Positions 28,648 through 62,563 of a DNA stretch of 64,000 bases are shown here, piece after piece. The stretch comes from Novipirellula aureliae (GTDB lineage: Bacteria; Planctomycetota; Planctomycetia; Pirellulales; Pirellulaceae). The translations under genes were made by a program, and so were the position numbers. The notes under the pieces were generated by a model that was not told the DNA's origin, searched no databases, and saw only the letters and a list, made by a program, of their open reading frames with translations. Every line of letters starts with the position of its first letter. Position 1 is the stretch's first letter. The DNA is taken from NCBI RefSeq assembly GCF_007860185.1, contig NZ_SJPY01000002.1:899775-963774 (forward strand), given 5' to 3'.

Positions 28648-31600
28648 TTATTTCCAGACAATCTTGCCTTCTCCGCTTTCGGTGTTCACCCATACGCTGG
28701 CATGCTCAAATTCACGGGTGAATTCCCAGCCTTCCGGAGTCGTTCGCTCGTAAGCACCTTTGGGCGCGCCCAGCGGTTTACTCAGTTCCGGGTAGTCATG
28801 CAGGGATCCGGACGAAAGTGTCCAGCCCCATCCGTATTGAAAATAGGAATAGGGCTGTGCGCCGATCAGGTAACAGGCGAGGTAGTATTCCACTCGTTCC
28901 TTAGCCAAGGCTACTGTCCCTTGGGACCGACCACTTCGTGGGTCGCCCTGCCGGTTCTGGGGGCGGTCCTGTTCAACACCAATGCGAAAGATCGACATCT
29001 TTCCCGCCTGGGCGATACGCAACATATCGTCCCAGTCCCGCAGCAGCCCCTCCTTGCTCAGAAGTTCTTGTCGATAGTGCTCAAACATGCTGGCGTCCAT
29101 CACAGGGAAAACATGATCGGCGATGGTCTGATGAGCGTTGTTGGCAAGCAGGATTTTATCCGGCCCCATTTTTTCTTTCAACGCAGCCATCATCTGCCCC
29201 ATCGCCTTTTCAACCTCGGCGCTCCTGTCCTGGCGTAGCCAGAAGAAACCATGCATTTGATCAATGAAGACTCCATCGCAGCCAGAGTCAGCCACGCCCT
29301 TGGCCACGGTGCCGGACCACCACTCGCGAAACTCTGGGTTGAGCACGTCAAAAAAGAAGGTGTTGTTTCGATGAGCAAGCTTGCCCGTTTCAGGATCGAC
29401 TAACAGAAACTTCTTCAATTCCGGGTATTTGTCGATTTGCCCCGGCCTAAATGCTTGGTTGTAAGAGGTAAAAGGCCAGGCATAGGCCGAGTTGAAATAA
29501 AATAGCACCTTCATCTCGGGTTTGATCTTTTTAAAGGCCGCCGCCTCGTGCTTGGCCCCCAACTCAGCAGCACCGAGTTCTTTATAGCCATGCGATTTTT
29601 CAATACAGAGATAATCGGTGCGCGCCGCAATAAATTCCACTTCCTCTGGAGTCAGTGTCCGTGTCGTGTCCCCAAACATATAGTACATCGGCACCGTGTC
29701 CCAACGGAACTCGGGATAATAGTCTTGAGGCACAAAGACACTCCCATCGCTGATGCGGTATGGATTCTTTTCCAGCCGCCCCATCTTTGATACATCCAAC
29801 GCTTCGATGCCCAAGGCCAAGGCAGGACTGCCGGGCCGGAAACTAAAATCACCACTGGCAGGATCCGTAAACAAAGGGTCACCAAAAAGACTGTCCTTTT
29901 CTTTCCCTACCGCCCGCATCTTAGAAAAATGCTCATCCATCCAGTGCGAATCTGTTGGATGGTAGTAAAGATTCGACTCCATATCGGTGTCCACGATCTT
30001 AGGTCCACCCGCAGGGTTGGTGTTTCTAATTCCATTCTTAAGTCTTTCGACATAAGCACTGCCACCATCGGGATGAGACATCACAATATTGCGTTGCACT
30101 TTTGACCCTGTAACGGGCACCCATTCAAAACTAAGGTAGCCATAGATGGGTGCCGCAACGGGCGCAACAACAAAATTGTTGATGATATCATTCACGCCTT
30201 TTGAAGCGATTGCCGCAGCAAACCCAAAGTTTTTATAGAGGACATTTCCATAAATCAACGTCTCGTGCTGATCATCATCGCAGCGAATCGCTGCTGGCAG
30301 AGAATGCGCCGCATTGTCATGCACGAAGTTGTAACGAATAATATTGCCCGTCCCCGTTCCGGAAATATAGATGGCATTTCCATCGGATAGCAGTTGAACG
30401 GCATGGCTGATCTCGTTGCTTTCCAACAAATTGTGCCGAGCATGAAGGTATTTCTCGCGATTCTTCCAGTTCTCATAGCCATTGCGCGCGGTATTAACCT
30501 CATCCGCAATCTCGTGACTTCGTACCGTCCGGGCCCCTTCTCCGTTTAAGTTACCGCCGCCCCGACGAGGATTTACCCTCGTCGTGATGAGCACCGCCGC
30601 ATAGCCACTATGGTGCAATTCATTATGAACCATCCGGTTATGTCCACTTTGCCAGGCCCATATCCCCGGTGAATGCCACGTGATTTCACTAAAGTGATGG
30701 ATGAGATTATTGACAATATCATTGTGATGGTTGACGTCTTTGGTCCCGGGACCATACCCTACCAACAGAATCCCGGCCTCGCCCAGATGAGCAAATTCAC
30801 AATTCTCGATACGATTGCGTTGAGCATACAGATCCAAACGCACTCCTGTTCCGCCTGAATCAATAAAACGGCAAGCTGTCACGCGACAATCTTCAGCACC
30901 GCGAAAACGAAGCATCGCCGTGGGCCGATCAAACATGTCCCAGTCGTGTTGCAATCCCCAGCCCAACCGCGTCTCATCGGTCGTCCAGGTCCAACGGTCC
31001 GCATGGCTAAAGGTCAGTCTAGAGAAGGCAATACCACAAACAGGTTTGTCCTTCGGCCCATCGTAATCAATGTCGCCTTCCACACGAATCAACTCACTGG
31101 TGCACGGTGCCAAAATTCCACGGGGCGATCCATCCGGAGCTGGATCAGAGGGCCACAAATAGATCTTTCGAGTTTGGGTATTGACCACCCATTCCCCGGG
31201 TTCATTCAACGCCTCAAGAATATTTTCAACCCACACCGTTGAGCCGGAAGGATTATGAACCCAACCCGGTAATGGCCCCATTCGATAGGTTGCGGAAACA
31301 CCTGTTTTCGCCACCCCCGAGGCTATATCGACGGAGGCGAGCGGAAGCATGTTGATCACCCAGGGGTGCGAAGGTCTCACCTGAACTTCGACGTCCCCAA
31401 TATTATCCCAAGACTTCAACGCCCCTTCTGGAAAGTGCAACGTTCGCTGATCGCCCGATTTTGTATAAGCAAAGCCAGCATTTCTGGCACGCCGCAGACG
31501 ACCCTGTCGATCGTAAAGGGTGTAGAATCGGTCCATACCTACGGGCATATCGGCCACCCACACGTTGCCAGCTGCCTCAGCGGGCAATTCAGGAGACGCG

Positions 31601-32025
31601 GATTCCAATCGCGTCCAACCCGTGACGGGCACCCCTGCGCTAAGCACCGGCTTCTCGCCAGGATAGGCGGCGAAGGTCAGATGAGCGGGCCCCGTCAAAT
31701 CTCCGGCGCCATACAACTCGAGAGGGGCCGCATCCGTTGACACGGGAGCCCCATCTTCCATTCCCAATACCAACGTTTGGTTAAGTTGATGGCGACCCTC
31801 TCGAAGATAGATAACCGCGGGCTCTTGATCACCCGATTTGCGCAATGCTCTCACCGCATCCACCGCTGCGGGGAGCGAGCCAAAAGGCTTCGCTATACTC
31901 CCGTCGGCCCGCTTCGCTCCATCAACCGACACATAGAATTCCGCAGTAAAACTCTCTCTCGGTATAAGAACGGCCAGTCCCCATAGCAGGAACAAGGCAA
32001 ACACTCGCCTAAATTGAATTTTCAT
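28648..32025 (-). CDS. Two-part enzyme: GH141-like beta-helix fused to a GHL15-like TIM barrel
   Basis: 1125 residues, signal peptide at the N-terminus. Residues about 25-750 form a GH141-like right-handed beta-helix protein (FYVSVDGAKRADGS, SLPAAVDAVRALRK, GEWVVNTQTRKIYLWPSD, NNLIHHFSEITWHSPGIWAW). Residues about 780-1125 form a second catalytic-type module: FRWDTVPMYYMFG, TDYLCIEKSHGYKE, MKVLFYFNSAY, NPEFREWWSGTV, CDGVFIDQMHGF, LLANNAHQT, and the ending EFTREFEHASVWV. This module looks like hypothetical glycosyl hydrolase family GHL15 (inference). The start overlaps the stop of the esterase gene (ATGA). The whole protein is a close paralogue of 47626-50931. Confidence 0.85.
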   Translation of the reverse strand: MKIQFRRVFALFLLWGLAVLIPRESFTAEFYVSVDGAKRADGSIAKPFGSLPAAVDAVRALRKSGDQEPAVIYLREGRHQLNQTLVLGMEDGAPVSTDAAPLELYGAGDLTGPAHLTFAAYPGEKPVLSAGVPVTGWTRLESASPELPAEAAGNVWVADMPVGMDRFYTLYDRQGRLRRARNAGFAYTKSGDQRTLHFPEGALKSWDNIGDVEVQVRPSHPWVINMLPLASVDIASGVAKTGVSATYRMGPLPGWVHNPSGSTVWVENILEALNEPGEWVVNTQTRKIYLWPSDPAPDGSPRGILAPCTSELIRVEGDIDYDGPKDKPVCGIAFSRLTFSHADRWTWTTDETRLGWGLQHDWDMFDRPTAMLRFRGAEDCRVTACRFIDSGGTGVRLDLYAQRNRIENCEFAHLGEAGILLVGYGPGTKDVNHHNDIVNNLIHHFSEITWHSPGIWAWQSGHNRMVHNELHHSGYAAVLITTRVNPRRGGGNLNGEGARTVRSHEIADEVNTARNGYENWKNREKYLHARHNLLESNEISHAVQLLSDGNAIYISGTGTGNIIRYNFVHDNAAHSLPAAIRCDDDQHETLIYGNVLYKNFGFAAAIASKGVNDIINNFVVAPVAAPIYGYLSFEWVPVTGSKVQRNIVMSHPDGGSAYVERLKNGIRNTNPAGGPKIVDTDMESNLYYHPTDSHWMDEHFSKMRAVGKEKDSLFGDPLFTDPASGDFSFRPGSPALALGIEALDVSKMGRLEKNPYRISDGSVFVPQDYYPEFRWDTVPMYYMFGDTTRTLTPEEVEFIAARTDYLCIEKSHGYKELGAAELGAKHEAAAFKKIKPEMKVLFYFNSAYAWPFTSYNQAFRPGQIDKYPELKKFLLVDPETGKLAHRNNTFFFDVLNPEFREWWSGTVAKGVADSGCDGVFIDQMHGFFWLRQDRSAEVEKAMGQMMAALKEKMGPDKILLANNAHQTIADHVFPVMDASMFEHYRQELLSKEGLLRDWDDMLRIAQAGKMSIFRIGVEQDRPQNRQGDPRSGRSQGTVALAKERVEYYLACYLIGAQPYSYFQYGWGWTLSSGSLHDYPELSKPLGAPKGAYERTTPEGWEFTREFEHASVWVNTESGEGKIVWK

Positions 32026-33053
32026 TTTCTTTTCCCTTTATCCACCATGTTGCTATTCGTCGGGCTCCCACTCAGAGATCCCCCCTTTTTGTTCTTCTCT
32101 TCCTTAGGTAAATGTTCAGCGAGGAAGGCCACTGTGCGTGTGTAGATCGCATCGACCGAGGGTTCAATCGGCGTGGTTCCATCGGCTTTTCGCCAATTGT
32201 GCCCCGCGTTTTTGATGATCATGATCTGAACGGGAGCCGTTAGAGCCTCCGCTTTTTCCTGCATATAATAGGCATGCTTTACCGGAATGGTGGTATCGCC
32301 GTCGCCTTGAATCATCAGCAAAGGAGGACTGTCCTTTCTCAAATAGTTGACCGGGCTCATTTCCCGGTAAAGCGCCAGCTTCTCTTCAGGTTTTGAATCC
32401 GCTTTGAGAATGCGTGGTCCGAAGCGATCTCGAAAATCAGCCCGATCATCATGGTTAAAGAGTTCCGTTTTTTCAAAGTCGCACGGTCCATACCAGGAAA
32501 CCCCCGCGATCATCTTGTACGAATAGTGCGCCAACTCTTTCGCCCCAGGCAAGTCATCCGGTGACGCCAGCAACAGCATCTGGGCAATCTGCCCACCAGA
32601 CGAATCGCCGAAAGTAAATACCCGGTCTGTATCGACGGACAGCGAGACGCTATTTTTGGAGAGATAACGAATAGCGTCTTTTGAATCGATGACGCAGTCG
32701 CGCATTGAAACAGTACCGCCCTTTTCCCACAACCGATAATCGACTGAAGCCACGCAGAACCCTTCTTCGGTGAGTTGATGCACGACTTTAGACATATGGG
32801 TTCCGCTGGCCGCACCGCCCTTACTGCCAACTGCCCACCCGCCGCCGTGCGTGTAGATAACGACGGGATATTTGCCGGGCTGCTCAATCGCGGGATAATA
32901 GAGATCCAAATGCAAGGCCGTTTCCGGAGTGGTCTTGTAGAGGATGTCTCTCTTCACGGTCTGCGCCTCGGCCAAAAATGGCAGCAGAACACCCGTCAGC
33001 CAAACAACGGTCAATAAAACTCGTTTATCTAGATGCCTTACGCTTTGCAACAT
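32022..33053 (-). CDS. Secreted alpha/beta-hydrolase (carbohydrate esterase-like)
   Basis: 343 residues from the ATG at 33053, which has AGGA at good spacing; the frame goes further upstream but without signal. The signal peptide ends AEAQ. Alpha/beta-hydrolase features: oxyanion motif HGGGWAVGS, nucleophile elbow FGDSSGGQIAQ, acid near QGDGDTTIPVKH and the catalytic His in IKNAGHNWRK. This is the hormone-sensitive-lipase/BD-FAE-type fold often used to remove acetyl or other esters from glycans. Its stop overlaps the start of the fusion enzyme downstream, so the two are coupled. The basic tail (KEEKNKKGG) is unusual. Confidence 0.85.
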   Translation of the reverse strand: MLQSVRHLDKRVLLTVVWLTGVLLPFLAEAQTVKRDILYKTTPETALHLDLYYPAIEQPGKYPVVIYTHGGGWAVGSKGGAASGTHMSKVVHQLTEEGFCVASVDYRLWEKGGTVSMRDCVIDSKDAIRYLSKNSVSLSVDTDRVFTFGDSSGGQIAQMLLLASPDDLPGAKELAHYSYKMIAGVSWYGPCDFEKTELFNHDDRADFRDRFGPRILKADSKPEEKLALYREMSPVNYLRKDSPPLLMIQGDGDTTIPVKHAYYMQEKAEALTAPVQIMIIKNAGHNWRKADGTTPIEPSVDAIYTRTVAFLAEHLPKEEKNKKGGSLSGSPTNSNMVDKGKRK

Positions 33054-33346
33054 ATCAGTCCTTTCATAACTCCAACGATTATTTTTTTCTTCACAACATC
33101 CGCCCTCAAAATGGTACGAACTCTTTGTATGGCTACGAGTCTTGGTTACACGCCTCTCCGCCCATCGATCTTTCAAATAAAGCCAACAGTCGAATTACCG
33201 ACAGTGACAAACCAGGAACAAACATTCAAGCTTTCCATTTTTCTTTAAGTGACCCGGATGCCCGCCGCAGGCCACTTATGACTACAACTGAATTCATAGC
33301 ATCGTGACTTCAGCCGCCGTCTCCTTTGACGTAGCCCAGGAAGCGA

Positions 33347-34831
33347 TCACGGCTCTTCGGCGAATACAATCTTCACCATATCTGGCAAATCGGTTTGCAT
33401 GATCTTGGGGACGACTAGCCGCAAAGAACCGTCGCGATATTCGTAATCCATTGCCACCCCGGTTCTCAACAACGTAACGGAGGTGGGGCGATCAAGCTCA
33501 TGGATAAATACCGTATTCTCTTCGTTGGGCATGGCATACCAGATACGGCCTCGAACCGTTGTGTAGTTCTGCGTCTTGTCGAGGGTGGGCAAGGGAGCAT
33601 CTAAATCAATGTCATAAATCGCTTCGCGAGAATGCTTCATCCAACCCGCCATCTCATCACACACGTCGTAAAACCAGTCCATCATTTCACCGTTGCCGCG
33701 CGGAGGAACATTGACCAACAGATTGCCTCCCAATGAACGACAGCGAATCAGTTCGGCTAACAGGGTATTCGTATCCCAATGATTCCGTTCGCACTCGATT
33801 CCATAATGCCAATTCGGTGTAAAGCTATTTTCCGATTTGCGACACTCTTCCCACCACCAGCCGCATTCATTAGCGACTTTGACATTTTCGCTGGCGCCCT
33901 GATGCTCACCCTCTGGAGTGGCAATATTACCGCGTGCAACCAAAACCGTCGGTTGCATGGTCGCCAGCTCTTCGTCCTTCATGGCAACACTTCCGTCCCA
34001 CCACATGACGTCGATGGGCCCGTAGTTTTGCATAAGTTCCCGTACCTGCCCCTGCGCTTCTTGTTTCTCAGCAGCCGCCATTGCTGCCGTCACCGTTGGC
34101 CTACCGATCACTTTCTCCATTTTATGATTATAGTACGCGCCAGACCCCGCTTCGCCAAAGCTCTTCTGTTCATGGGCAAAATGCCAACTTGGACCCGAAT
34201 AATAGAAACCCACCTTGATCCTATTCTTCCTGCAGGCCTCCACATAGTCCTTTATCAAATCACGCCCGCCCATATATTCTCCTGTATGCCAAGACCCATA
34301 CTGACTAGGCCAAAGCGCGTAGCCATCGTGGTGGCGCGCCGTTAGTACCGCATAACCGAACCCGGCCTTCGACGCAGCCGCCATCCATTTATTGGGATCA
34401 TATTTGTCCGGGTTCCACGTTTCAGCCACGGCAAACATCTTGGTCGCGGGCTCCATATAGCGTCCGCTTCTTGCTTTGGCGGCATTCCACTGTATGGCCC
34501 AAGCATCCCCCGTATCGGGATTGGCGCTGGGTAGCCCCCAGTGCAGAAAGATTCCCAGCCCAGACTTGCGAAACCATTCCCACTCGGGGTGTTCGTTTGC
34601 ATCAATGACCTTTCTAGCGATCAGCTTTCGGTGCAGATTTTCTCGCGCCCACTGCTGAAGTTCTTCCGGTGAGCGATCGGCCCACGGTCGATCGGCCAGT
34701 GTCTTCACATGCTTACCTTGCTCCAGAGCAAAGGGATCTTCAGCATAATTGACTTCCGATGCGCTCAAGGTTGCTACCATCAAGACACAGGCAAGGCTGA
34801 GTCTAATTCTAATCGTTGAAATCATGGTCAT
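33347..34831 (-). CDS. Alpha-L-fucosidase GH29
   Basis: 494 residues. A start at the third codon (ATG at 34825) has better spacing to GAAAGGA. Signal peptide ends near TLSAS. After a short helical N-domain the GH29 barrel begins with LGIFLHWGLPSANPDTGDAW. It continues with LTARHHDGYALWPSQYGS, KVGFYYSGPSWHF and the nucleophile Asp279 in DVMWWDGSVA. ARHHDGY is a small change from the usual KHHDGF. It lies on the minus strand between the beta-helix gene and the esterase gene. Exo-fucosidase activity is expected; linkage cannot be read. Confidence 0.88.
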   Translation of the reverse strand: MTMISTIRIRLSLACVLMVATLSASEVNYAEDPFALEQGKHVKTLADRPWADRSPEELQQWARENLHRKLIARKVIDANEHPEWEWFRKSGLGIFLHWGLPSANPDTGDAWAIQWNAAKARSGRYMEPATKMFAVAETWNPDKYDPNKWMAAASKAGFGYAVLTARHHDGYALWPSQYGSWHTGEYMGGRDLIKDYVEACRKNRIKVGFYYSGPSWHFAHEQKSFGEAGSGAYYNHKMEKVIGRPTVTAAMAAAEKQEAQGQVRELMQNYGPIDVMWWDGSVAMKDEELATMQPTVLVARGNIATPEGEHQGASENVKVANECGWWWEECRKSENSFTPNWHYGIECERNHWDTNTLLAELIRCRSLGGNLLVNVPPRGNGEMMDWFYDVCDEMAGWMKHSREAIYDIDLDAPLPTLDKTQNYTTVRGRIWYAMPNEENTVFIHELDRPTSVTLLRTGVAMDYEYRDGSLRLVVPKIMQTDLPDMVKIVFAEEP

Positions 34832-35015
34832 GATCCTTTCGGGTACTCATCTAATCATTATCGCCAGCTAAACTTGGATAAAACTCTTACGACACAAAAG
34901 TAGCCCCATCGTCATCCATTGCAAAACAACGCTCTGACACGAGGAAAAGAGCCAATCGTCCCATCCGGCTCATTGCTTGGGCATTTTTAATTTGCAATTC
35001 TCTTTTCAAATCCCT

Positions 35016-37223
35016 CTATTTCTTTTTGTTTCGTAAGCCCACCTCAGACATATCAAAAGGAACGATCCCTATGTTCAGCGCGGGTGAGTTCGGCCTGAAC
35101 CGGAAGTCTCCATTTTCCGGATCGACGAATAACGGGTCGACCGCAAGACTGTGCTGGTCCACACCGTCCTCCTGATTTCCAACCAGCACCATCCGGCCCG
35201 CTTCAGGGTTTTCGGCGCAAAAATAGATGTTGTAATCGGTATCGGCTTCTTTTGCCCAAGCAAGAGCAAGCGGGTCTCGGCCAGCCCCCTGATCATAGAA
35301 CTCGACAGGTCCCCGGGTATGATAAAGTACATTTCTCTGGATCGAGCCGCCCGTCAACGGTCCCGACTTCAGCTTTAAGTACGCCGGCAGAAAGATCTTT
35401 CCTTTGTGAACCGATTCGATGATGTCGACGATGAGGTTGTTCTCTACACGGTTATTATTCTTTAGGTGAATGCCATGAGAGACGCACTGATAAAGCAAGT
35501 TGCCGGTAATAAGAGTCCCCTTTTGCAACCCGTCGGTTCGAATGGCACTCTGCATAACGATTTCCTGGGCAATGAAATGATGGATATAGTTTTGGCGAAT
35601 AACATTTCCAATCCCCGCACCGCGAAGATAGATCCCGTTCCCATCCCCCATCACCTCCATTCCATGGTGAATTTCGTTATATTCAACCAGGTTATTGCAG
35701 GAAAAGTGGTTCGATTCATCGGCCTCCACACGGTTTTCATAAGGATCGGACAGATCCTTTTCTTTGTACACAGACCGACGTTCGAAACGGTCGAGAAGCC
35801 CAGAAATGATCACGCCCGCATACGGGGTGTTATGGATTAAATTATTAGCAATCCGATTCTGCCCGCTCTGCCAGATGAATACCGCCGGAGAGTGCCAATA
35901 AATTTCGCCCACATTTTGAATATGATTATTATAAACGAGATTGTGTTTATTCACGTCCTTGGCGCCAGGGCTATATCCACAGAAAAGAATGCCGGTGCCC
36001 CCCATGTATTCAATATGGTTGTTCTGAATGGTGAGGTTCTGTCCATACAAGTCTGACCGAATCGCAGTTCCGCCGCTATGAACAAAGTGACACCCATCAA
36101 CAGTACACGCTGCGGCAAATCGAAAACGCATCAGCGCATTGGCCTTATCGAACATTTCCCAGTCGTGTTGAATGCCTTTATCGTCCGGAGCCCATGAATA
36201 TCGCTCCCCATGCATAAACGTTAACCCTTTAAAGCATAGATTGCGCACCGGGATGTCGGCGGCGCCCGCTTGCCCCTCCTGTCCCTGGACAAGGATAGAT
36301 TCCTTCAACAAAGGTGCCACAACTCCTTTTGGTTTTTCGCCATTCCGCGCCCACAGGTACAGTTTGCCTTCCCGAGTATTCAATACCCACTCACCCGGCG
36401 CATCGAGGGCCTCTAGAACGTTCTCAACCCAGGCGCAGTCAACACCGGGAATTAAATGGAGCTCCTCCATCAGGTAGGTTGCAGTAAAAACCGTTGTGGC
36501 AATCTTCGCCTTTTCATCCACCGACTCGAGCGGAAGAATATTCATCACCCATCCTTGTCGAGGGCGCACGATGACCTCCACATCCTCCAGATTCGCCCAA
36601 TTCTTAAGGGCTCCTGCCGGGAAGTGTAATAGATCCCTGTCGTAAACAGCTGATAACGTTCCCGGTTTTACGGTGGGGATAAACCCCTCTGACCGAGCCC
36701 GTGGCAACCGTCCGTCCGCATCATACAAGGTATAAAAACGCCACCGCGCATCCTTTAGGTTTGGAACATCAGCAACCCAAACCTTTCCAGCGGCAGCCGC
36801 CGGCAATGAGGAAGGCGCGGTCTCTAGCTTCTTCCACCCCTCGATTTCACGACCGGAACTGAATACCGGCGTCTCGTCTGGATAGGCAGCATAGGTGATC
36901 GTCGAATCGCCCACGCCGGAATCTTCCAAACCGAACACCACGGTTTTTTCAAGCGGATAGGTTCCGCCACGAATCAAAACAACACGATCATGATCCCCTG
37001 ACCTTGTCTTTTTTAATTCACGCACCGCATTTCGTGCGCGTTCCAGCGTTGCGAACGGCCCATCTTTTCCTTGAGCATCCGGAGCCGACAACGTGCCGGA
37101 CCATTGATCGGAACCTTCGGTAGACACATAAAAGTCAGCAGGAACCGCTGAATCCGCCGCAACCGCACCGAATACACTTCCCGCCATCAGAGCCAACGTC
37201 GCAATCCAATTTTTCTTCCTCAT
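35016..37223 (-). CDS. GH141-like secreted beta-helix enzyme
   Basis: 735 residues from the ATG at 37223, chosen because it overlaps the stop of the upstream gene (ATGA). Signal peptide ends AVAAD. It has the same build as the N-terminal part of the two fusion proteins: FYVSTEGSDQWSGTLSAPDA, RARNAVRELKKTR, GEWVLNTREGKLYLWARNG, then helix rungs such as NNHIEYMGGTGILFCGYSPG and NNHIQNVGEIYWHSPAVFIW, ending DPENGDFRFRPNSPALNIG. It has no added TIM module. GH141 members act on fucose- or xylose-containing glycans. It is translationally coupled to the GH29-TIM fusion. Confidence 0.85.
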   Translation of the reverse strand: MRKKNWIATLALMAGSVFGAVAADSAVPADFYVSTEGSDQWSGTLSAPDAQGKDGPFATLERARNAVRELKKTRSGDHDRVVLIRGGTYPLEKTVVFGLEDSGVGDSTITYAAYPDETPVFSSGREIEGWKKLETAPSSLPAAAAGKVWVADVPNLKDARWRFYTLYDADGRLPRARSEGFIPTVKPGTLSAVYDRDLLHFPAGALKNWANLEDVEVIVRPRQGWVMNILPLESVDEKAKIATTVFTATYLMEELHLIPGVDCAWVENVLEALDAPGEWVLNTREGKLYLWARNGEKPKGVVAPLLKESILVQGQEGQAGAADIPVRNLCFKGLTFMHGERYSWAPDDKGIQHDWEMFDKANALMRFRFAAACTVDGCHFVHSGGTAIRSDLYGQNLTIQNNHIEYMGGTGILFCGYSPGAKDVNKHNLVYNNHIQNVGEIYWHSPAVFIWQSGQNRIANNLIHNTPYAGVIISGLLDRFERRSVYKEKDLSDPYENRVEADESNHFSCNNLVEYNEIHHGMEVMGDGNGIYLRGAGIGNVIRQNYIHHFIAQEIVMQSAIRTDGLQKGTLITGNLLYQCVSHGIHLKNNNRVENNLIVDIIESVHKGKIFLPAYLKLKSGPLTGGSIQRNVLYHTRGPVEFYDQGAGRDPLALAWAKEADTDYNIYFCAENPEAGRMVLVGNQEDGVDQHSLAVDPLFVDPENGDFRFRPNSPALNIGIVPFDMSEVGLRNKKK

Positions 37224-39826
37224 TTTCCGCCCCTTTGTTTTTGCCAAATGATCTTGGCATCTTTCGATTCAAGATCCACCCAAACCGAGGCATGTTCGAA
37301 CTCTCGGCGCAACGTCCAGCCCTCCCGCACCATATCCCCAAGGGGCTCTCCCAACGGCTTGTCAAATTCGGGATACCACTCCAGACAGCCCATCTCCATC
37401 CGATAGCCCCAGTTATAGATGAAGTAGGAGTTTTCCTGGGCGCCAACTAAGAAAGCGGCGAGAGGAAAGGTGATACTCTTTCGAGCGATCTCCTGTTTTT
37501 CAGCTAGGGATTTTCTCATGAAGGCCCCGTCGATAAACGTGAACCCGGACCACCCTTTAAACACAACAATGCGTCCATTTTTACAGGCCCGCTCCATCTC
37601 GAGGATATCCTTGAGCATGCACTCCTTTGAACCGCTGTTAAAATGGCCGAAGTGCTCGATCATTGCAGCATCGGTATGCTCCGGGTAGTCGTACCCCACC
37701 TGCCAGGTCGGCGTGGAACGAATCCCGTTGTATACAATCAACTTGTCCTCACCAATCTTTTGGCGGGTTTCCCAAATGATCTCCTTGAGCCCCTGCTGAA
37801 TGGCATCATATTTTTCCTGCCCCCAAAGAGGGATATTGTCTGGACTCGCCACCTGAGGAAAGGCATCCATAAACACGCCGTCGCAACTCCCCTCAACGAC
37901 CGCCTTGCGGGCCACACCCGCCCACCAGTCTCTAAACTCGGGATTCGACAAGTCATACCGCTTCATTTCCAAGCGAGTATTCGGCTTAATATCTACCTGC
38001 CCATCGACGGTCTTCAGCCACCATTCGGGATGCTGTTGATACTCCTGATGCGCCTGAAACATCGGGTAATCCAAAAAGGCGTTCCAATAAAAGATCACCT
38101 TCATATCCGGATTCAGTGCTTTGAGTTGCCGAGCCTCCATCTCGATCCCTGTTTCGGTGTCCTTAAATTGGCCGGACGCATGTCCTTTTTCCAAACAGAT
38201 GAAATTTGATCGGGTGGCAACAAACTTCGCCTCCGCCTCGGTCAACAACGCCGGACTGTTGCCAAAATGAAAGGCCACCGGGACGGTGTCCCAACTGAAC
38301 GCGGGATACCGAGCCGCTCTCTTTTGCGCTCGCACCGAGGTAATGCGAAAGCCGATTACCAGATCATCTGGCAGCGTTTTCGGCAAGGAGATCGTCAACG
38401 CTTCTGCCGAACGCGTCCATGCCAGGGTCTCATCGCTGCCCAAGAGCTCAACCGCCCCGACCTCGTCCGCATACACCCCGCCCTTTGCCAGCGTCTTGAT
38501 GACGATATCTTCCGTCGGTCGGGCCAGAACGAATGCATACAGAGCGTCTCCCTTGACGGTAAAGCGAATGTCCTGTGGCACAAAGTTCTCGAGATTTTCC
38601 TGTTGGCGGCCCTCATTGATGACAGTCGGCCCTTCTCCAAATACCGTCCAAGGGCGCGTGCCATAGATTCCCTCACCACTGGTTTTCAGAAAGTCGCCAA
38701 AGGCGGTCAAATAAGCCGCCTGATTCGCGGGAATTGTCCCATCGCCTTTCAACGCAATATTGAGCATGACCACCCCGTTTTTGCTGATGGCATCCACCGC
38801 ATTGCCCACCATCACCGGAATGCTCATCTTGTTGACCGCATCTTTGCGATAGAACCAGTTGCCGGAAAGGTCCGTCGCCCACATCCAAGGTTGGGCTTGA
38901 ATGTCTGCCGAACCGCCACGTTCCACATTCGGGGTATACGCTCGCTTATCCTTCCCCCCTTTCGCGGAGAACACCACCGTTTGTGAACCGCCATTTTCTG
39001 CGCGGTCACGATTCAAATAGGAAGAGAACAGCTGAAGTCCCAGAGATTTCCCGGTCCTTTCATTGGGATACGGGCAATCATTATTGAACCAATCGGGATC
39101 ATACTTTTCAATGATCTCCCAACAGCGTTTGTACCAATGCTCATTCCAACGGTCCTGGCTTGCATACTTCGCCGGATCGTAGTCCATATTAAAAAATTCC
39201 CACCCGGGCGTACCCCGTTTCTGGTATTTACGAGCGGCGGAAAAAAACTTCGGAGACCAATACAAATGCGTCGAAACACCAAACTTCAGTCCATGCTTCT
39301 GCGCAGCCGCCTTCCATTCCTTCAACGTATCGCGTTTCGGTCCCATATCCACCGAGTTCCAGGAATGGGACGAATCATACATATCGAAATTATCATGATG
39401 ACAAGCCACCGGCATAATGAAATGCGCACCGTTGTCCTTGCAGAACTTCACCAGTGCATCCGGATCCCATTTTTCCGCCTTAAACATCGGAATCAACTTT
39501 TCATATCCGAACTCCGACGGATGCCCATACCGTTCGGTATGCCACTGCGTGAGGGCGGCAGTCCTATCCAAATCTTCCTTAGCTCCCTTGGGCGACCAAT
39601 ACTCTTTAAGCCCATACATGCGGCGACCGTAATGTGAGTCATCATTCGGGCGATCTTCATCGATCGCCGAGGGGATCCCCCAGTGAAACCAAACTCCAAG
39701 CTTCCCATCTAAGAACCATTCTGGAACCTCATAGTTATCTGCCATCGATTCCCATGTTGGCTCAACCTGCGCGACAGCAGACTGCCCAACCCACAATGCC
39801 ATCGCCAATATAACCATCCGCTTCAT
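37220..39826 (-). CDS. GH29 fucosidase fused to the GHL15-like TIM module
   Basis: 868 residues from the ATG at 39826 with GGAGG upstream. Signal peptide ends QSAVAQ. The N-terminal GH29 barrel (about 40-420) has VWFHWGIPSAIDED, CHHDNFDMYDSSHSWNSVDM and PDWFNNDCPYP; the last aligns without gaps to PDVLWNDMGWP of the Thermotoga enzyme, placing the nucleophile at about Asp250. From about residue 510 the second module begins: YPAFSWDTVPVAFHFG, SNFICLEKGHAS, MKVIFYWNAFLDYP, LSNPEFRDWWAGVA, CDGVFMDAFP, LIVYNGIR, LRREFEHASVWVD. Two glycosidase-type barrels in one chain suggest sequential cleavage. It is coupled by ATGA to the beta-helix gene. Confidence 0.87.
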   Translation of the reverse strand: MKRMVILAMALWVGQSAVAQVEPTWESMADNYEVPEWFLDGKLGVWFHWGIPSAIDEDRPNDDSHYGRRMYGLKEYWSPKGAKEDLDRTAALTQWHTERYGHPSEFGYEKLIPMFKAEKWDPDALVKFCKDNGAHFIMPVACHHDNFDMYDSSHSWNSVDMGPKRDTLKEWKAAAQKHGLKFGVSTHLYWSPKFFSAARKYQKRGTPGWEFFNMDYDPAKYASQDRWNEHWYKRCWEIIEKYDPDWFNNDCPYPNERTGKSLGLQLFSSYLNRDRAENGGSQTVVFSAKGGKDKRAYTPNVERGGSADIQAQPWMWATDLSGNWFYRKDAVNKMSIPVMVGNAVDAISKNGVVMLNIALKGDGTIPANQAAYLTAFGDFLKTSGEGIYGTRPWTVFGEGPTVINEGRQQENLENFVPQDIRFTVKGDALYAFVLARPTEDIVIKTLAKGGVYADEVGAVELLGSDETLAWTRSAEALTISLPKTLPDDLVIGFRITSVRAQKRAARYPAFSWDTVPVAFHFGNSPALLTEAEAKFVATRSNFICLEKGHASGQFKDTETGIEMEARQLKALNPDMKVIFYWNAFLDYPMFQAHQEYQQHPEWWLKTVDGQVDIKPNTRLEMKRYDLSNPEFRDWWAGVARKAVVEGSCDGVFMDAFPQVASPDNIPLWGQEKYDAIQQGLKEIIWETRQKIGEDKLIVYNGIRSTPTWQVGYDYPEHTDAAMIEHFGHFNSGSKECMLKDILEMERACKNGRIVVFKGWSGFTFIDGAFMRKSLAEKQEIARKSITFPLAAFLVGAQENSYFIYNWGYRMEMGCLEWYPEFDKPLGEPLGDMVREGWTLRREFEHASVWVDLESKDAKIIWQKQRGGK

Positions 39827-40162: not shown

Positions 40163-41374
40163 TTAATCCAACTCCACCAAAACGGATGAGATTAGATGTC
40201 CTCGGGTGTCTTTCAAATTCACGTAATACGTCTGGCAACTCTTCGGAAGCTGAGCCACCACCGTTCCCGCCTCGGCGTTCACCAATGCCTTCCGCTCGAT
40301 CCAGGGCCCCGGCCGAGAATGTTTTGCCCCCGGATCACCCGCCGGTTTGCGATAGGTAAGCGGTTCGTTTAAATAATAAACCGTCGCGCTTTCCAGCGGC
40401 ACATCCGATTTGTACATAAGCTTCACATCTCGCCCCGACGGCTGCTTTACGATACGTCCAAGCGCCGCGCCTTGCCCCTTGAGAATATGGTCTGCAAAGG
40501 CATAAATTTCAGGAACCCGTTTCTTATCCCACCCAGGACCGTGTCCGTGCGCCAACCCGGGGTGAATATTCAAAAATGCATGGTCGTCTGTCGTCTCAAA
40601 GCAGTGCGAGGTTGTGTTGACGGAAAAGTGGCCGTCGCTATCGCTGTTGACCCAGAGGGTTGGAACGGACCCTTCCACGATATAGCGAGACGGATCCCAG
40701 AACTTCTGCGCATCGGTTTTCACACTGGCAAAATGGCCGAGTGAATCGAAGAGGTACCCACAACCATATACCGGCATCGCGCACTTATAGCGCGAATCGA
40801 TTCCAGAGACCAGACTGCTCAAAATGCCGCCCCAGGAAATACCGGTCACACCGATCCGATCCGCATCCACGCCCGGCTGCGCTGCCAGAAGCGAATTTGC
40901 GATGAAAATATCGGACACCGCATGATACATCCACTGCTCATTGAGCGGCAGTTCTGCATCATCAAATCGGCCGACTCGAGAGGGACCACTAAACTCATGT
41001 CGAATTTTCCCGGCACCCTTCTCGTTCGGCATATGCCCTTCCAGACTCATCGAGATGGCCGCATACCCGCGATCGTTCCAAATCTTAACCCAATTGTAAA
41101 AAGCGGTTCCACCGCCCCCGTGAACCAGTACCATGGCTGGCACCGGCTCATCGCTCTGCGGAATGCCAATGTAGGCAAACGCCCGTGTGGGTTTCCCTTT
41201 GTAGTCGAGCGTGTCATAAAAGATCGCTTGAATATCGCCTTGGTCCTGCTCCGGAACACGATGAATGTCTGGAACCTCATAGACCTTATCGTCCAATAGC
41301 AGGGAATCACCCGCAACCGCTGACACACTCAACGATACGAGCACCAACAAGCACCAACCTGTTCTTTTTAACAT
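40163..41374 (-). CDS. Secreted acetyl-esterase-like alpha/beta-hydrolase
   Basis: 403 residues from the ATG at 41374 (a TTG at 41407 is possible). Signal peptide ends SAVAG. The fold and motifs fit the acetyl xylan esterase/dienelactone hydrolase type: VHGGGGTAFYNWV, the nucleophile elbow GISWGGILSSL and the late His in HPGLAHGHGPGW. The N-terminal strand part has IQAIFYDTLDYKGKPTRAFA. It should remove acetyl groups or similar esters so that glycosidases can act. It lies between the TIM protein gene and the remnant, all on the minus strand. Confidence 0.8.
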   Translation of the reverse strand: MLKRTGWCLLVLVSLSVSAVAGDSLLLDDKVYEVPDIHRVPEQDQGDIQAIFYDTLDYKGKPTRAFAYIGIPQSDEPVPAMVLVHGGGGTAFYNWVKIWNDRGYAAISMSLEGHMPNEKGAGKIRHEFSGPSRVGRFDDAELPLNEQWMYHAVSDIFIANSLLAAQPGVDADRIGVTGISWGGILSSLVSGIDSRYKCAMPVYGCGYLFDSLGHFASVKTDAQKFWDPSRYIVEGSVPTLWVNSDSDGHFSVNTTSHCFETTDDHAFLNIHPGLAHGHGPGWDKKRVPEIYAFADHILKGQGAALGRIVKQPSGRDVKLMYKSDVPLESATVYYLNEPLTYRKPAGDPGAKHSRPGPWIERKALVNAEAGTVVAQLPKSCQTYYVNLKDTRGHLISSVLVELD

Positions 41375-41470
41375 AGCAATCTCATTACAATTCTGGATGT
41401 TTTCCAACCTCTAGAAAATCACAGTTTCTTTTTCCAGAGTTTGGGATTCTTTTTTTTCCATTAGAAAGCG

Positions 41471-43633: not shown

Positions 43634-43714
43634 ACGTCCTTATCCTTCTACTGATTAAGTGCCCTCACGCGAGAGAGCGTCATTTTTATACAAACACGTT
43701 CACGTCCACTCAAT

Positions 43715-45481: not shown

Positions 45482-45536
45482 ACTTCACGTCTCCTTTTTA
45501 TTAAATTCAGATCCTCAACGCACAACGATAACTCTT

Positions 45537-47072
45537 CTATTTCCCGCGAATCGCCTTACGGACTTCCTCCATCACCGCCATGCATTTGGGGTTAAAAATG
45601 GGATGCTCATCCGTTACATCAGCGGTCATAATCAGATTGATGGTGACGGGAACCTTCTCCGTGGCCATGCGTTTGAAAAAGGCAACGTATTCTTCGGTGG
45701 AATGAGAAGGCCCTTTGCCGAACTCACCATTCATCGGCTTGTTGGAGAACCACCCCTCCTGATCCATCAGACACCACCACGCGGAGGTCACATCGCCGAG
45801 CTGTTTGCCCGGACCAATAATTGCGGGATCAGGCTGCAGCAATTCCTTGCCGCCGTCGGTCACCGTTAACTCACTAAACGGACTGACCCTCGGCCCCCGG
45901 TTCGAACTGAACCCTGCCACCGCATTGGGATTGCCTGCCTTGATTGCGCGGGCCCAGTCTTCCCACGACACATCGAGCGGGTAATCGTTCATCAAGGAGC
46001 CGTCAATGTAGCCGAAACCCATCAGCTTCTCGCCATATCGCAAACTGGCATATCGCAAGATGGAAGCGATATTATCGCTGAAACGGGTTTTATCGTCATC
46101 AAGCGCACCCGCCGCCGGACGAAACGTCGTTTCATATCCGTTGTAGGCAGTGTGCATATAAAACAATGTGCGAATCCCCCGACGATCCAGCTCGGTGATG
46201 ATTTCCCCCAGCAGGTCGCGTTCGGCAGTGCGGCCCGGCATAATTTTATCCAAAGCGGCATTCGGTGCCGGCCAAAAGAAACCCTTGTGCGTAGAGGTAA
46301 AGACAATCCACGCTGCCCCGGTACGCTCAATGGCATCCGCAAACACGTTTACATCGAACATTTTAACGGCGTCTTGAAACCAATCCGCGCGCGGAGTATT
46401 CCCCGTAAACCCATGACTAAGCGCCGACCAATGAACAAAGATGCCATATTTTCCGTCAACCATCCATGATGCATCACCCCGAATCGCTTGGGCCCGCTCC
46501 ACTTGCGCCTTGCGTGCAGTCGCGGTTCCAATTTCAATCGACCACAGATGAAGGCCTTGTGTGATGCCATAACCAAATCGATCGGCAGCCACGACTTTCG
46601 GTTGCGTGTCAGGCAAACGCACGGTGATTTGATTCTCACCTGCTTTCAAACGAAGCGTGCCGGGAAGCTCTTGCCTCCAGAAAAAGGGTCGATTTTCCCA
46701 GGTACAGGTAATCGATGGCGCAACAAGAACGGAGTCTCCGCAACTCACTTCAATGTTATGCTGATCCCGCATGCTGTACAGCAAACTGATGACATAATCC
46801 CCGTCTTCTGGCGCAGCCACCGTCCAGCGGATCGTGTCCTGCGGCGTCTCAAAGCCGTAGATCGCACGATTCACTTCCTGCTTCACATTCGCAGAGAGCT
46901 CTCCACGCGAGCCGGTAATGACAGTCACATCGTCTGCCTTCAACGGAACGACTCCCTTGATTAAGCGAACCTCCGCTCTCTTCTCTGCCGCGCTCACAGT
47001 GGACGCCATCATCAACATCCACACCGCGGCGATGCAAACCGATAGGCTCGTCATTCCGGTTCGAACTCTCAT
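45537..47072 (-). CDS. Divergent GH29-like fucosidase with N-terminal CBM-like domain
   Basis: 511 residues from the ATG at 47072 (AGGGA upstream); the frame extends to 47117 without signal. Signal peptide ends STVSAA. About 25-190 are a beta-sandwich like sugar-binding or malectin-type domains (RWTVAAPEDGDYVISLLYSM, GTLRLKAGENQITVRLPD). The barrel follows: KYGIFVHWSALSHGFTG, IVFTSTHKGFFWPAP, IRTLFYMHTAYNGYE, MGFGYIDGSLMNDYP. The usual KHHDGF is reduced to THKGF and the nucleophile region is altered, so activity could differ from standard fucosidase. Confidence 0.72.
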   Translation of the reverse strand: MRVRTGMTSLSVCIAAVWMLMMASTVSAAEKRAEVRLIKGVVPLKADDVTVITGSRGELSANVKQEVNRAIYGFETPQDTIRWTVAAPEDGDYVISLLYSMRDQHNIEVSCGDSVLVAPSITCTWENRPFFWRQELPGTLRLKAGENQITVRLPDTQPKVVAADRFGYGITQGLHLWSIEIGTATARKAQVERAQAIRGDASWMVDGKYGIFVHWSALSHGFTGNTPRADWFQDAVKMFDVNVFADAIERTGAAWIVFTSTHKGFFWPAPNAALDKIMPGRTAERDLLGEIITELDRRGIRTLFYMHTAYNGYETTFRPAAGALDDDKTRFSDNIASILRYASLRYGEKLMGFGYIDGSLMNDYPLDVSWEDWARAIKAGNPNAVAGFSSNRGPRVSPFSELTVTDGGKELLQPDPAIIGPGKQLGDVTSAWWCLMDQEGWFSNKPMNGEFGKGPSHSTEEYVAFFKRMATEKVPVTINLIMTADVTDEHPIFNPKCMAVMEEVRKAIRGK

Positions 47073-47134
47073 AAAGATCCCTTTTGTCAGCAAGATAATT
47101 CTCCAAACAGGACACACCGATTTCCAGGTGATCC

Positions 47135-47224
47135 TTACGTCATTTTTTTAATATCTAGTAACACACTCGCATGTTCAAATTCGCGGGTCTAGACATATCC
47201 ATCCTTCACTGCTGGCCCTTTAGG
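47135..47224 (-). pseudogene. Decayed C-terminus of the GHL15-like TIM module
   Basis: The minus frame reads PKGPAVKDGYV, a TAG stop, then TREFEHASVLLDIKKMT and a TAA. It lines up with the ending of the intact modules (KAVRDGWVYTREFENLSV and FTREFEHASVWV), with the stop replacing the Tyr codon. No upstream part of the gene remains. Confidence 0.75.
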
Positions 47225-47404
47225 AGACTGCTGAGACAGCAGCAACCAACCTATGCCGGAGGCCGAAACACAACCTAGGCCGGAGGCCGAAACATCCGCT
47301 GCCGGTGGCGTGAGCCACCGGAATGGATGACAACCGAGCCGCTAGCCCGGAGGGCGACACACCAGCGATGGTGTGTCGGCCTCTGGCCTGAAAACAATGC
47401 TACG

Positions 47405-47547
47405 ACTTCAGTAGTCTCCTTCGGCGGCCCCAGCCGCTTCCGGTACTCTTCAAACTCTTTCAGCCAGACCAAACTGTCATTCCCATTCACGCTGTATCCA
47501 TCATGCGGGCAGACAAACACATTCACCTTCATGCCTGACCCCTTCAT
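47405..47547 (-). pseudogene. Protein-like fragment, family not recognised
   Basis: The minus frame begins MKGSGMKVNVFVCPHDGYS and continues NGNDSLVWLKEFEEYRKRLG, PPKETT, then dissolves into repeat sequence. It looks like a real C-terminal or internal piece of a gene broken by the repeats beside it. Confidence 0.35.
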
Positions 47548-47603
47548 GATCGAGGCCCTTCATGATCGAGGCCCTTCATGATCGAGGCCCTTCATGATCG
47601 AGG
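47540..47603. repeat. 16-bp tandem repeat, four exact copies
   Basis: CCCTTCATGATCGAGG is repeated at 47540, 47556, 47572 and 47588, followed by a partial copy. It ends 23 bp before the stop of the beta-helix/TIM gene. The centre TCATGA is palindromic. Confidence 0.92.
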
Positions 47604-47625
47604 CCCTTCACATTGCAAACCGAAC

Positions 47626-50600
47626 CTACCTCGATCGCCGCCCCGTTGCCTGCTGGTCCGCGGCTCGCGCTTCGGAGGTGAAGAGAACATCCGAAGCGGC
47701 CCCCTTCCCCTGGATCGTTGCCGTCTTATTCTCCAAATCAACCCGCACGCTTAGGTTCTCGAACTCACGTGTATACACCCACCCATCGCGAACCGCTTTG
47801 TCCAGTGGCTTGCCGGGAACTAGATCATATTCTGGAAAGTCAGAGAGCATGCCCTTGGTCTTCGCGTAGCCCGAGTTCATGATGAAGTAACTGTCGGGAC
47901 CATACAACAACAGAAACGCAGCAAAGGAAAACGTAATGTTACTGCGGGAATCGCCCCAACCGGAGCTACAGCGTGGCACGATTAACTTGCCGCTGTCGAC
48001 TTCCAACAACGCATCCAACATCGTTGCCGCAGCCTCCTTTGTATTTTGCGGACTGGTCAGAAAGAGCTCCACAAAAACCCCACTTGCATGCTCCAACACC
48101 TCCGCGCCGCCCTGAAGAACACCTTCAGAGGGTGCCCTGTATCCATTGTAGAGAACAATCTTTTCGTCGCCGATCTTTGCCCGCAGTTCATCCAAAGCCT
48201 TGCACAATCCATCCATTAAACCAGACACATCTGCTTTCGGAACCGCATCGATAAAGACACCATCCAAGTCACCTCGCTGAATACAGTCGGCAATGGAATC
48301 GACCCACCACTTTCGGCAATTCGGATTATTTAGGTCGTAGATTTCATATTTCGTGCCGCTTCCAACCGTCCAGATCCTGTGCACCCACTCCGGATGTTGG
48401 TTAAACTCCTGATTGGATTCATAGAAGGCGTCGTAGTTCATGACGGCGTTCCAGTACAGCAGCACCTTCATATCCGGATTAATGGCCTTTAACTTTTTCG
48501 CCGTTCCGATCGTCGCCGCCTCCGTATTGGGCTTAGGGCCATACTCCGCATAGGCATGCCTCTTTTCGACCGTAAATATGGAGTAGTTGTTTGCGATATA
48601 CTCATACTCCTCCGCCGTGAAATCATGCGGCTCGCTATAGCCATGCCCATACCGCTGAATGCGTTCGGTGTATCCATCGCCGCCCGACGTGGATGCCTCG
48701 GAATCGACTCTCCCCATCTTTGACGTATCGAGGGGTTCAATGCCTAGCTTCGAAGCTGGACTGCCGGGCTTAAAGCGAAAGTCTCCATTCGCCGGGTCCA
48801 CAAACATAGGGTCCCCAACCAGGCTGGACTTCTCTAATCCTGCCGCCCGCATCTTCGCAAAATGCTCATCCATCCATTTCGGGTCTGTCGGATGATAATA
48901 CAGATTCGAATCCATATCCGTATCAACAAGCTTCGGCACCGGCTTCCCTAAATTGTCCGGGATACGAACCCGCTCGTTATGCGCCTTTCCACCCTCTGGA
49001 TGGGACACAATAATATTGCGATGCACTTTGGAGCCCGGCACGGGAACCCATTCATAACTGAGGTATCCACTCGATGGCACAACCGCGGGCGCGACAATAA
49101 AATTATTGACGATATCATTGACACCCTTCGAAGCGATTCCCGCGGAAAACCCGCCATTATTATAGAGGACATTTCCGTAGATCAGCGTCTCATACTGATC
49201 ATCATCGCATCGGATCGCTGCCGGTAACGACAACGCACGATTATCATGCAGATAGTTGTAGCGGAGAATATTGCCTGTCCCGGTTCCCGACACATAAATG
49301 CCGTTCCCGTCGGAAAGCAACTCAACGGAGTGCGAAATTTCGTTGTATTCAAACAGATTGTGCCGGGCATGATTGTATTTTTCGCGTGCCTTCCAACTCT
49401 CATAGCCATCGCGTTTTACGGTTTTGTCCGCCTCCGCGATCTCATGCTGGCGAACGGTGCGTCCGCCCTCCCCGTTCAAACTCCGGGTCGGCTCCACACG
49501 CGTCGTAATCAACACCGCCGCATAACCGCTATGCGATAGCTCGTTATGCACCATCCGGTTATGACCACTTTGCCAGGCCCAAATCCCTGGCGAATGCCAA
49601 GTAATCTCACTGAAATGATGGATATAGTTATTGACAACATCATTGTGATGGTTGACATCTTTCGTACCCGGGCCATACCCCGCCAAAAGAATGCCCGCCT
49701 CACCTAAATGCGCCAGCTCACAGTTAGCAATGCGGTTGCGTTGCGCATGTAAATCCAACCGCACCCCGGAACCACCCGAATGCATAAACGAACAATCAAC
49801 CACCTGGCACGATTCGGCTCCGCGGAAACGGAGCATCGCTGTCGGCCGGTCGAACAGATCCCAATCGTGCTGCATTCCCCACCCAAGGCGGGTGTCATCG
49901 GTCGTCCATGCCCAACGATCCGCATGCGTAAACGTCAGCCCCTCAAAAGCAATGCCCCGCACCGGAATATCGGTGGAGCCCTCATAATCAATCTGTCCTT
50001 CCACCCGGATTAACTCACTAACACTTGGCGCAAGAATCCCTCGCGGCGAACCATCTCCAGCCGGATCGGACGGCCACAAATAGATCTTTCGTGTCTGGGT
50101 ATTCACCACCCATTCACCGGGCTCGTCCAACGCTTCCAAAATATTCTCAACCCATACGGTTGACCCAGAAGGATTGTGAACCCACTTGGGAAGCGGCCCC
50201 ATCCCATAGGTTGCCGAAACGCCCGTCGTCGCAACCCCCGAAGCGGGATCCACCGAAGCCAGCGGCAGCATATTGATCACCCAGGGACGGGATGGGCGAA
50301 CCTGAACCTCCACATCCTCAAGATTCTCCCAGTTCTTCAATGCCCCTTCCGGGAAATGCAACGTGCGATGATCGCCGGCCTTTGTGTAATCAAACCCTGA
50401 ATTCCGAGCACGATTCAAACGGCCCGTTCCATCATACAGCGTATAAAACCGATCCAGCCCCTGGGGCAGGTCAGCAACCCAAACCTTGCCAGCCGCTTTC
50501 GCTGGCAGACCCACAGGCGCCGATGCCAATCGTGTCCAGCCCGTTACTGGAACCCCTCCGCTCACAACCGGGTGCTCCCCAGGATACGCCGCAAACGTCA

Positions 50601-50931
50601 AATAAGGATCCATGATATCGCCAGCACCATACTGCTCGAGAGCACTGCTGCTCAAGGAAGCAGGAGCCCCATCTTCAAGCCCCAACACCAAGGTTTGGTT
50701 CAGTTGATGCCGTCCTTCGCGCAAAACAATCCTCACAGGATCGGCATACCCCGACTGACGCAATTCCCTCACTGCTTTTAGAGCATCCGGCAACGATCCA
50801 TACGGAGCCTCCAGGCTGCCATTTGCACCCACATTTTCCAAAGTGGACACATACAATTCTTTCGCGATTCCTTGCTGGCCTCCCAAAAGAAGCAACAAAA
50901 CAATCACCACATAAAGCACTCGATTTCTCAT
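47626..50931 (-). CDS. GH141-like beta-helix fused to a GHL15-like TIM barrel, paralogue 2
   Basis: 1101 residues with AAGAGAA before the ATG; signal peptide ends QGIAK. The N-terminal 730 residues follow the 28648-32025 protein closely (LREGRHQLNQTLVLGLEDGA, GEWVVNTQTRKIYLWPSD, FSEITWHSPGIWAWQSGH, LPAAIRCDDDQYETLIYGN). After a linker of about 20 residues (SEASTSGGDGY) comes the TIM module: NNYSIFTVEKRHAYAEYG, MKVLLYWNAVMNYD, NNPNCRKWWVDSI, LDGVFIDAVPK, KIVLYNGYR, VYTREFENLSVRVD. The module is more diverged than the helix part, so the two halves evolved at different speeds. It is the first enzyme gene after the sigma/FecR pair. Confidence 0.86.
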   Translation of the reverse strand: MRNRVLYVVIVLLLLLGGQQGIAKELYVSTLENVGANGSLEAPYGSLPDALKAVRELRQSGYADPVRIVLREGRHQLNQTLVLGLEDGAPASLSSSALEQYGAGDIMDPYLTFAAYPGEHPVVSGGVPVTGWTRLASAPVGLPAKAAGKVWVADLPQGLDRFYTLYDGTGRLNRARNSGFDYTKAGDHRTLHFPEGALKNWENLEDVEVQVRPSRPWVINMLPLASVDPASGVATTGVSATYGMGPLPKWVHNPSGSTVWVENILEALDEPGEWVVNTQTRKIYLWPSDPAGDGSPRGILAPSVSELIRVEGQIDYEGSTDIPVRGIAFEGLTFTHADRWAWTTDDTRLGWGMQHDWDLFDRPTAMLRFRGAESCQVVDCSFMHSGGSGVRLDLHAQRNRIANCELAHLGEAGILLAGYGPGTKDVNHHNDVVNNYIHHFSEITWHSPGIWAWQSGHNRMVHNELSHSGYAAVLITTRVEPTRSLNGEGGRTVRQHEIAEADKTVKRDGYESWKAREKYNHARHNLFEYNEISHSVELLSDGNGIYVSGTGTGNILRYNYLHDNRALSLPAAIRCDDDQYETLIYGNVLYNNGGFSAGIASKGVNDIVNNFIVAPAVVPSSGYLSYEWVPVPGSKVHRNIIVSHPEGGKAHNERVRIPDNLGKPVPKLVDTDMDSNLYYHPTDPKWMDEHFAKMRAAGLEKSSLVGDPMFVDPANGDFRFKPGSPASKLGIEPLDTSKMGRVDSEASTSGGDGYTERIQRYGHGYSEPHDFTAEEYEYIANNYSIFTVEKRHAYAEYGPKPNTEAATIGTAKKLKAINPDMKVLLYWNAVMNYDAFYESNQEFNQHPEWVHRIWTVGSGTKYEIYDLNNPNCRKWWVDSIADCIQRGDLDGVFIDAVPKADVSGLMDGLCKALDELRAKIGDEKIVLYNGYRAPSEGVLQGGAEVLEHASGVFVELFLTSPQNTKEAAATMLDALLEVDSGKLIVPRCSSGWGDSRSNITFSFAAFLLLYGPDSYFIMNSGYAKTKGMLSDFPEYDLVPGKPLDKAVRDGWVYTREFENLSVRVDLENKTATIQGKGAASDVLFTSEARAADQQATGRRSR

Positions 50932-62546: not shown

Positions 62547-62563
62547 AGAAAGACGAACACGCA

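Follow-up and report, generated by a model that had tools for sequence, protein, structure and literature searches.

A 64,000-nucleotide stretch of the Novipirellula aureliae genome (contig NZ_SJPY01000002.1, positions 899,775 to 963,774, called the window below) encodes four proteins, A, B, C, and D, that share a module of the Pfam family PF14885, or GHL15 (Table 1). The matches are far above chance level in all four; those of A (6e-48, 164.6 bits), B (1.1e-51, 176.8 bits), and D (9.6e-29, 101.6 bits) exceed the curated cut-off of 27, and that of C (1.9e-5, 25.2 bits) falls below it. The domain forms the C-terminus of A, B, and D and is internal in C. In Pfam, the carrier of B matches GH29 (PF01120, 4.6e-69, 233.9 bits, above cut-off), and the carriers of A and D match a beta-helix family above its cut-off (48.3 and 51.2 bits) and GH141_M just below its cut-off of 27 (22.4 and 24.5 bits). 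An original prediction, made from the letters of the window, had already recognised both the GHL15 module and these partners, and had called GHL15 a family without known activity. As judged from their sequences, the modules of A, B, C, and D are GH168 catalytic domains with a TIM-barrel fold.

Table 1 Proteins with GH168 modules, GH168 remnant, and associated features of the window
Feature	Position	Strand	Description and basis
Protein A, 1125 aa	28648..32025	-	GH141-type beta-helix, about aa 1-759, and GH168 module, about aa 764-1125; Pfam, PDB sequence search
GH141-type protein without GH168 module	35016..37247	-	GH141_M 31.5 bits, above cut-off; about 41-42% identity to the carriers of A and D
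Protein B, 868 aa	37220..39826	-	GH29, about aa 1-490, and GH168 module, about aa 498-863; Pfam, PDB sequence search
Protein C, 720 aa	41471..43633	-	Beta-rich N-terminal part, very divergent GH168 module, about aa 176-510, and weakly DUF1349-like C-terminal part; Pfam, PDB, model, Foldseek
GH168 remnant, second piece	47144..47224	-	Residues 332-358 of an L057-type module; tblastn 77.8% over 27 aa, 1e-8
Dispersed-repeat stretch, 194 bases, between both remnant pieces	47225..47418	.	91 matches listed across the genome, counting itself, with 40 of 78 candidates scored
GH168 remnant, first piece	47419..47517	-	Residues 301-333 of an L057-type module; tblastn 72.7% over 33 aa, 8e-11
Protein D, 1101 aa	47626..50931	-	GH141-type beta-helix and GH168 module of another lineage, about aa 756-1076

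In sequence searches of the PDB, the top rows for all four modules were GH168 proteins, either endo-fucanases or other members of the family. Module A matched 9jos (2.4e-179) and 8ya6 (Fun168A, 2.8e-146); module B matched 8rg5 (6.9e-153), 9nhf (MeGH168, 3.1e-140), and 9jom (Fun168E, 2.2e-132); module D matched 8rg5 (2.8e-45); and the best match of module C was 9joc (Fun168D, 7.4e-14). Similarity to solved or characterised GH168 proteins places A, B, and D in the family, and C joins them by similarity, (beta/alpha)8 fold, and catalytic pair, with a model whose mean predicted local distance difference test (pLDDT) score is only 64. GH168 was founded in 2020 on FunA, an endo-1,3-fucanase (PMC7401878), also holds FWf5, an endo-1,4-fucanase (PMC10778895), and is treated in PMC12210190 and PMC11943901. 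The modules thus match a family of known function, a result that the original prediction had itself named as speaking against it, and its proposal of an undescribed activity gives way to a family whose characterised members are endo-fucanases. An NCBIfam search of A, B, C, and D gave no match close to any cut-off. One supposedly unknown family is thereby struck off, and proteins whose sole annotation is GHL15 or “GH114 TIM-barrel” become candidate GH168 fucanases.

The catalytic residues agree with this assignment. In FunA, D206 and E264 are critical, the D206E and E264Q variants being inactive (PMC7401878), and their equivalents in MeGH168 are D167 and E237 (PMC12210190). The 8ya6 chain is numbered 15 higher than FunA, and by count on the alignment D206 falls in DGVFID and E264 in FEHY. 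The equivalent Asp and Glu, again by count on the alignment of A with 8ya6, are kept in A (D922/E982), B (D654/E724), and D (D895/E955); in C the pair is D337/E382. The predicted nucleophile is the Asp of the DG(V/T)F(I/M)D block, and the acid/base would be the Glu 45-70 residues further on; among 119 modules, the Asp is present in all and the Glu in 114. The original prediction had proposed the Asp of the DGVF block, which corresponds to FunA D206, together with the Glu of the LEK block. The latter was rejected as the acid/base, since the position of E264 in FunA and E237 in MeGH168 belongs to a different Glu. The LEK Glu is nevertheless kept in 113/119 rows (Thr in four, a gap in two) and may matter in some other role.

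Asp occupies the acid/base position in five of the modules (L013, L017, L041, L068, and L061; L numbers are our handles for loci). The first four (L013:1447-2619, L017:720-1796, L041:670-1791, and L068:8371-10719) form one group of the GH168 tree, in which the Glu is replaced by Asp (VDDF) and the LEK Glu by Thr. This coupled change may mark another activity. L061, with Asp at the acid/base position, has yet retained the LEK Glu.

The fused modules could conceivably be catalytically dead and serve only to bind fucan or to place the carrier on it, as they are appended to complete enzymes, and an Asp-for-Glu subgroup exists elsewhere that includes one of 18 multi-domain rows (L068). However, the Asp is kept in 18/18 and the Glu in 17/18 of these rows, with both kept in 17, the window's four included, and crystallised GH168 proteins share 78% identity with the module of A and 70% with that of B. 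A binding-only role was rejected on the retention of this pair, and we regard it as very unlikely.

The original prediction also pictured one module shuffled through the cluster. Its ordered blocks are present, except that the copy in D lacks W-D-x-V-P, and fusion to fucosidase-type partners does recur, but the modules belong to four lineages. Identity to the module of B is 35% for A, 37% for D, and 24% for C (28-row alignment), and the four stand in separate groups on both GH168 trees. The larger tree (119 rows) holds modules of at least 150 bits with a span of at least 260, exact and contained duplicates and weak copies such as L063, L069, and L071 being left out; the smaller (53 rows) includes 36 hand-picked stand-alone rows and omits L064 and L061 for their long branches. 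L181-L185 are absent from both. Stand-alone genes in the same genome (L058) and in a congener (L067) share 77.7-77.8% identity with the module of A, and the value for the protein of the congener G002 that contains the 9jos stretch is 77.8%. The module of B shows 68.5% identity to L055 in the same genome and 70-71% to stand-alone genes from other phyla and from the K23_9 strain, whose gene (L075, 70%) contains the 8rg5 stretch. For D, the best identity is about 38% (L060).

Comparison of the carriers separates them from their modules. The GH141 carriers of A and D share 75% identity, and beyond residue 759 the value per 40-column block is only about 20-35%. Another protein of GH29-GH168 type, L057 (C2:848968-851541, also L057:8929-11559), lies 48 kb from the window, which begins at C2:899775; its GH29 part is 68.6% identical to that of B, and the GH168 modules only 28.4%. 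Approximately unbiased (AU) tests on these two pairs, chosen by architecture, rejected the modules of A and D as one clade (p 7.3e-6) and those of B and L057 as one clade (p 2.6e-33). On the 53-row tree, the starred branches require at least ten switches between stand-alone and fused. A single module copied across the cluster and then diverging fast would fit the same ordered blocks in all copies, the C-terminal position in all but C, and some clustering of the fused/stand-alone label on the 119-row tree (14 changes versus a shuffled mean of 17.1). It fits poorly, however, with a module A that shares 78% identity with stand-alone genes in the same genome and in a congener but only 35% with B, and the AU rejections of both pairs led us to discard it as very improbable. 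The decayed fragment predicted at 47135-47224 exists, but it is larger than proposed and consists of two pieces split by a repeat (Table 1); both match an L057-type module (tblastn, 73% over 33 residues and 78% over 27 residues).

It is most likely, from these sequence comparisons, that at least four GH168 lineages of the genome (A, B, D, and L057) became fused to carriers in separate events or took the place of a previous module. Unfused counterparts of both halves exist. The congener G002 has the parts as separate genes: a GH141 gene with 73-75% identity to the carriers of A and D, GH168 genes of the A type, and two GH29 genes of the B type (68-69%). The unfused GH141 ends in DVSKMGRLGD, and A continues from DVSKMGRL into its GH168 part with a sequence resembling the mature start of a stand-alone GH168, the signal peptide being left off. 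The junction of the GH141-GH168 protein of a Pontiellaceae strain (L151) is shorter than that of A, which may reflect a fusion event of its own or a deletion afterwards. At L065:9920-12842 of the congener, an unfused GH168 gene and a B-type GH29 gene adjoin on one strand with GH168 first, the reverse of the order in the fusions; this GH168 gene is 50% identical to the L057 module. In Pelagicoccus (L143), 12 bases separate the end of an unfused GH141 gene from the GH168 gene that follows, and in Bacteroidota (L134, L144, and L152) GH168 is followed by GH141, overlapping or without a gap.

Fusions of this kind recur beyond the window. The genome has 12 PF14885 matches at E<=0.001, or 13 with C, of which seven are stand-alone genes and six are multi-domain; in the phylum, 12/392 sampled genomes hold a match above the PF14885 cut-off. 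The profile occurs in 146 frames, counting repeats of one place; in 31 of them more than 150 residues precede or more than 100 follow the module, our rule for multi-domain proteins, and the other 115 fall short of this length. By Pfam, the partners are GH141 in A, D, L076 (Pelagicoccus), and L151; GH29 in B and L057; GH95 in L133 and a sulfatase in L136, both from one Mariniblastus metagenome-assembled genome; and an AXE1-like esterase in L099 and L102, the remaining partners being unnamed or Ig-type. GH168 is C-terminal in all ten of these named fusions. In the non-GH168 parts of L103, L137, L068, L088, and L181, Pfam names only sorting or weak repeats. Across the 80 named GH168 loci, which are the top 80 of 147, proteins resembling the window's sulfatases occur in 47, its GH29 proteins in 35, and its GH141 proteins in 11, with none of these in 24. 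A search with B gave full-length matches in its own genome only among the 392 phylum genomes (E<=1e-30, two candidates scored per genome). We found no description of a GH168 fusion or multi-domain architecture in the literature searched; work on fucoidan breakdown by marine Planctomycetota (Perez-Cruz 2024) lies outside that search and may describe such fusions.

Protein C is the most divergent case. In its model (barrel blocks with pLDDT 57-94), D337 and E382 end the strands 333-337 and 378-382, and the best 17 Foldseek matches in the PDB are all GH168 (2.7e-19 to 7.7e-16), the next match standing at 1.9e-6. C may, together with its paralogue L055:12229-14418, represent a GH168-like branch that acts on another substrate or linkage. 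The two are 51% identical to each other, the identity of C to the 15 remaining modules of their alignment is only 22-28%, the stem below the pair on the 53-row tree is 2.13 changes per column long, C bears extra N- and C-terminal parts, and at E<=1e-15 it is found in one of 392 phylum genomes, the window's own (two candidates scored per genome). On the other hand, the fold and both catalytic positions of C are consistent with GH168, and the paralogue also lies among GH29-like genes; we consider a different specificity of this branch unlikely, though by no means negligible.

Taken together, the enzyme family of the locus is a known one, and its fusion architecture is recurrent and exchangeable. 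We think it quite probable that GH168 modules, predicted to be retaining alpha-L-fucan hydrolases, have been joined to other fucan-degrading enzymes, separately or by replacement. A, B, and D would then be active retaining fucan hydrolases combined with a second enzyme on the same polymer, the carriers being putative secreted fucan-degrading enzymes, where A and D have a GH141 beta-helix enzyme and B has a GH29 exo-enzyme. Module and fucosidase-type partners probably act on the same class of polymer, as first proposed. The GH168 half most likely makes internal cuts, and the carrier would act at chain ends or on another linkage.

Several observations weigh against this interpretation. The modules of A, L151, and L076 were not rejected as one clade (AU p 0.155), so these three GH141 fusions may share one origin followed by transfer. 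The branching order of seven close GH141 carriers is not settled, which leaves separate joining and module replacement indistinguishable, and the exact tree places of C and D are unsure because of their long branches. In the founding paper, eight of the 13 GH168 homologues obtained in soluble form showed no activity on the fucans assayed (PMC7401878), so any substrate assignment here is tentative, most of all for C. Finally, the solved GH29 protein nearest to the carrier of B is an exo-alpha-L-galactosidase (7lnp, 1.1e-66), and its target may therefore not be fucose, L-galactose being possible.

A broader and more tentative proposal, which we judge a little more likely to be wrong than right, is that GH168 is a recruitable catalytic cassette: one carrier type, GH141 or B-type GH29, would be paired with modules from different branches of the family and hence with varied fucan specificities. 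Together with the fusions to GH95, sulfatase, and esterase, this would give a combinatorial set of two-enzyme fucan degraders, in which the C type and the Asp-for-Glu clade may have new specificity. Fucoidan is a carbon-storing polymer that is degraded slowly. The natural two-enzyme proteins (GH141-GH168, GH29-GH168, GH95-GH168, and sulfatase-GH168) allow a direct test of coupling on this substrate.

By Pfam, the window also encodes four more GH29-matching proteins, two more GH141-type proteins, two sulfatases, and esterase-type proteins, which makes a fucan-degradation setting a fair reading. A peptidase family C25 (gingipain-type) protein (21243-23012) adjoins the two sulfatases. Just past the end of protein D lies a 16-base tandem repeat (47540-47610, 4.4 copies, no mismatch). 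Two pairs of a sigma-70-type gene and a FecR-containing protein (51192-53331 and 61863-63877), the latter with a Laminin_G_3 domain in one pair and CBM96 in the other, are possibly regulators of the cluster.

Among known systems, the carriers of A and D are GH141-type like the Wf141 endo-fucanases and the fucosidase BT1002 (5mqp), GH141 being understood here as a beta-helix with the Asp pair of BT1002 (D523, D564). In the PDB, the A carrier matches 9rx2, a beta-helix protein of unnamed function (4.4e-153), and its match to 5mqp (1.5e-8) spans residues 122-345 only. Four GH141 enzymes have been shown to be endo-fucanases (PMC12786026), and by analogy the carrier of A and D may be an endo-fucanase like these or an exo-fucosidase like BT1002. 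In contrast to A and D, no GH168 partner of Wf141 appeared in the passages of that paper that were searched. The carrier of B resembles the GH29 exo-alpha-L-galactosidase/fucosidase proteins (7lnp, 7snk) in sequence, but its clade differs in the nucleophile strand, which reads YDPDxFNNDxPxP in all five rows listed, with FNND where xWFD is usual; two of the five carry a GH168 module (B at 37220-39826 and L057:8929-11559). By count, the nucleophile Asp stands at Y+8 in 5/5 rows, and the gapped alignment with 7lnp shows Asn there, leaving the register slightly unsure. As for the modules, FunA/Fun168A (8ya6, 8ya7) and Poly41_55130 (9jos, 9jp2, 9jp3) have the Asp and Glu in common with A; FunA and FWf5 are reported to consist of a catalytic domain and signal peptide alone (PMC10778895), whereas A carries its module as the C-terminal half of a 1125-residue protein whose other half is a GH141-type carrier. 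PbFucA of Planctomycetes bacterium K23_9 (8rg3, 8rg5), for which a literature search by name found no paper, is a 392-residue frame, in contrast to module B fused to GH29. MeGH168 (9nhf), whose activity is yet to be assayed according to its paper (PMC12210190), and Fun168E (9jom) are further sequence relatives of module B. Fun168D (9joc, 9jof) is the best PDB match of C and among its best fold matches, at about 22% identity in the fold match, and C differs from it by the added N- and C-terminal parts.

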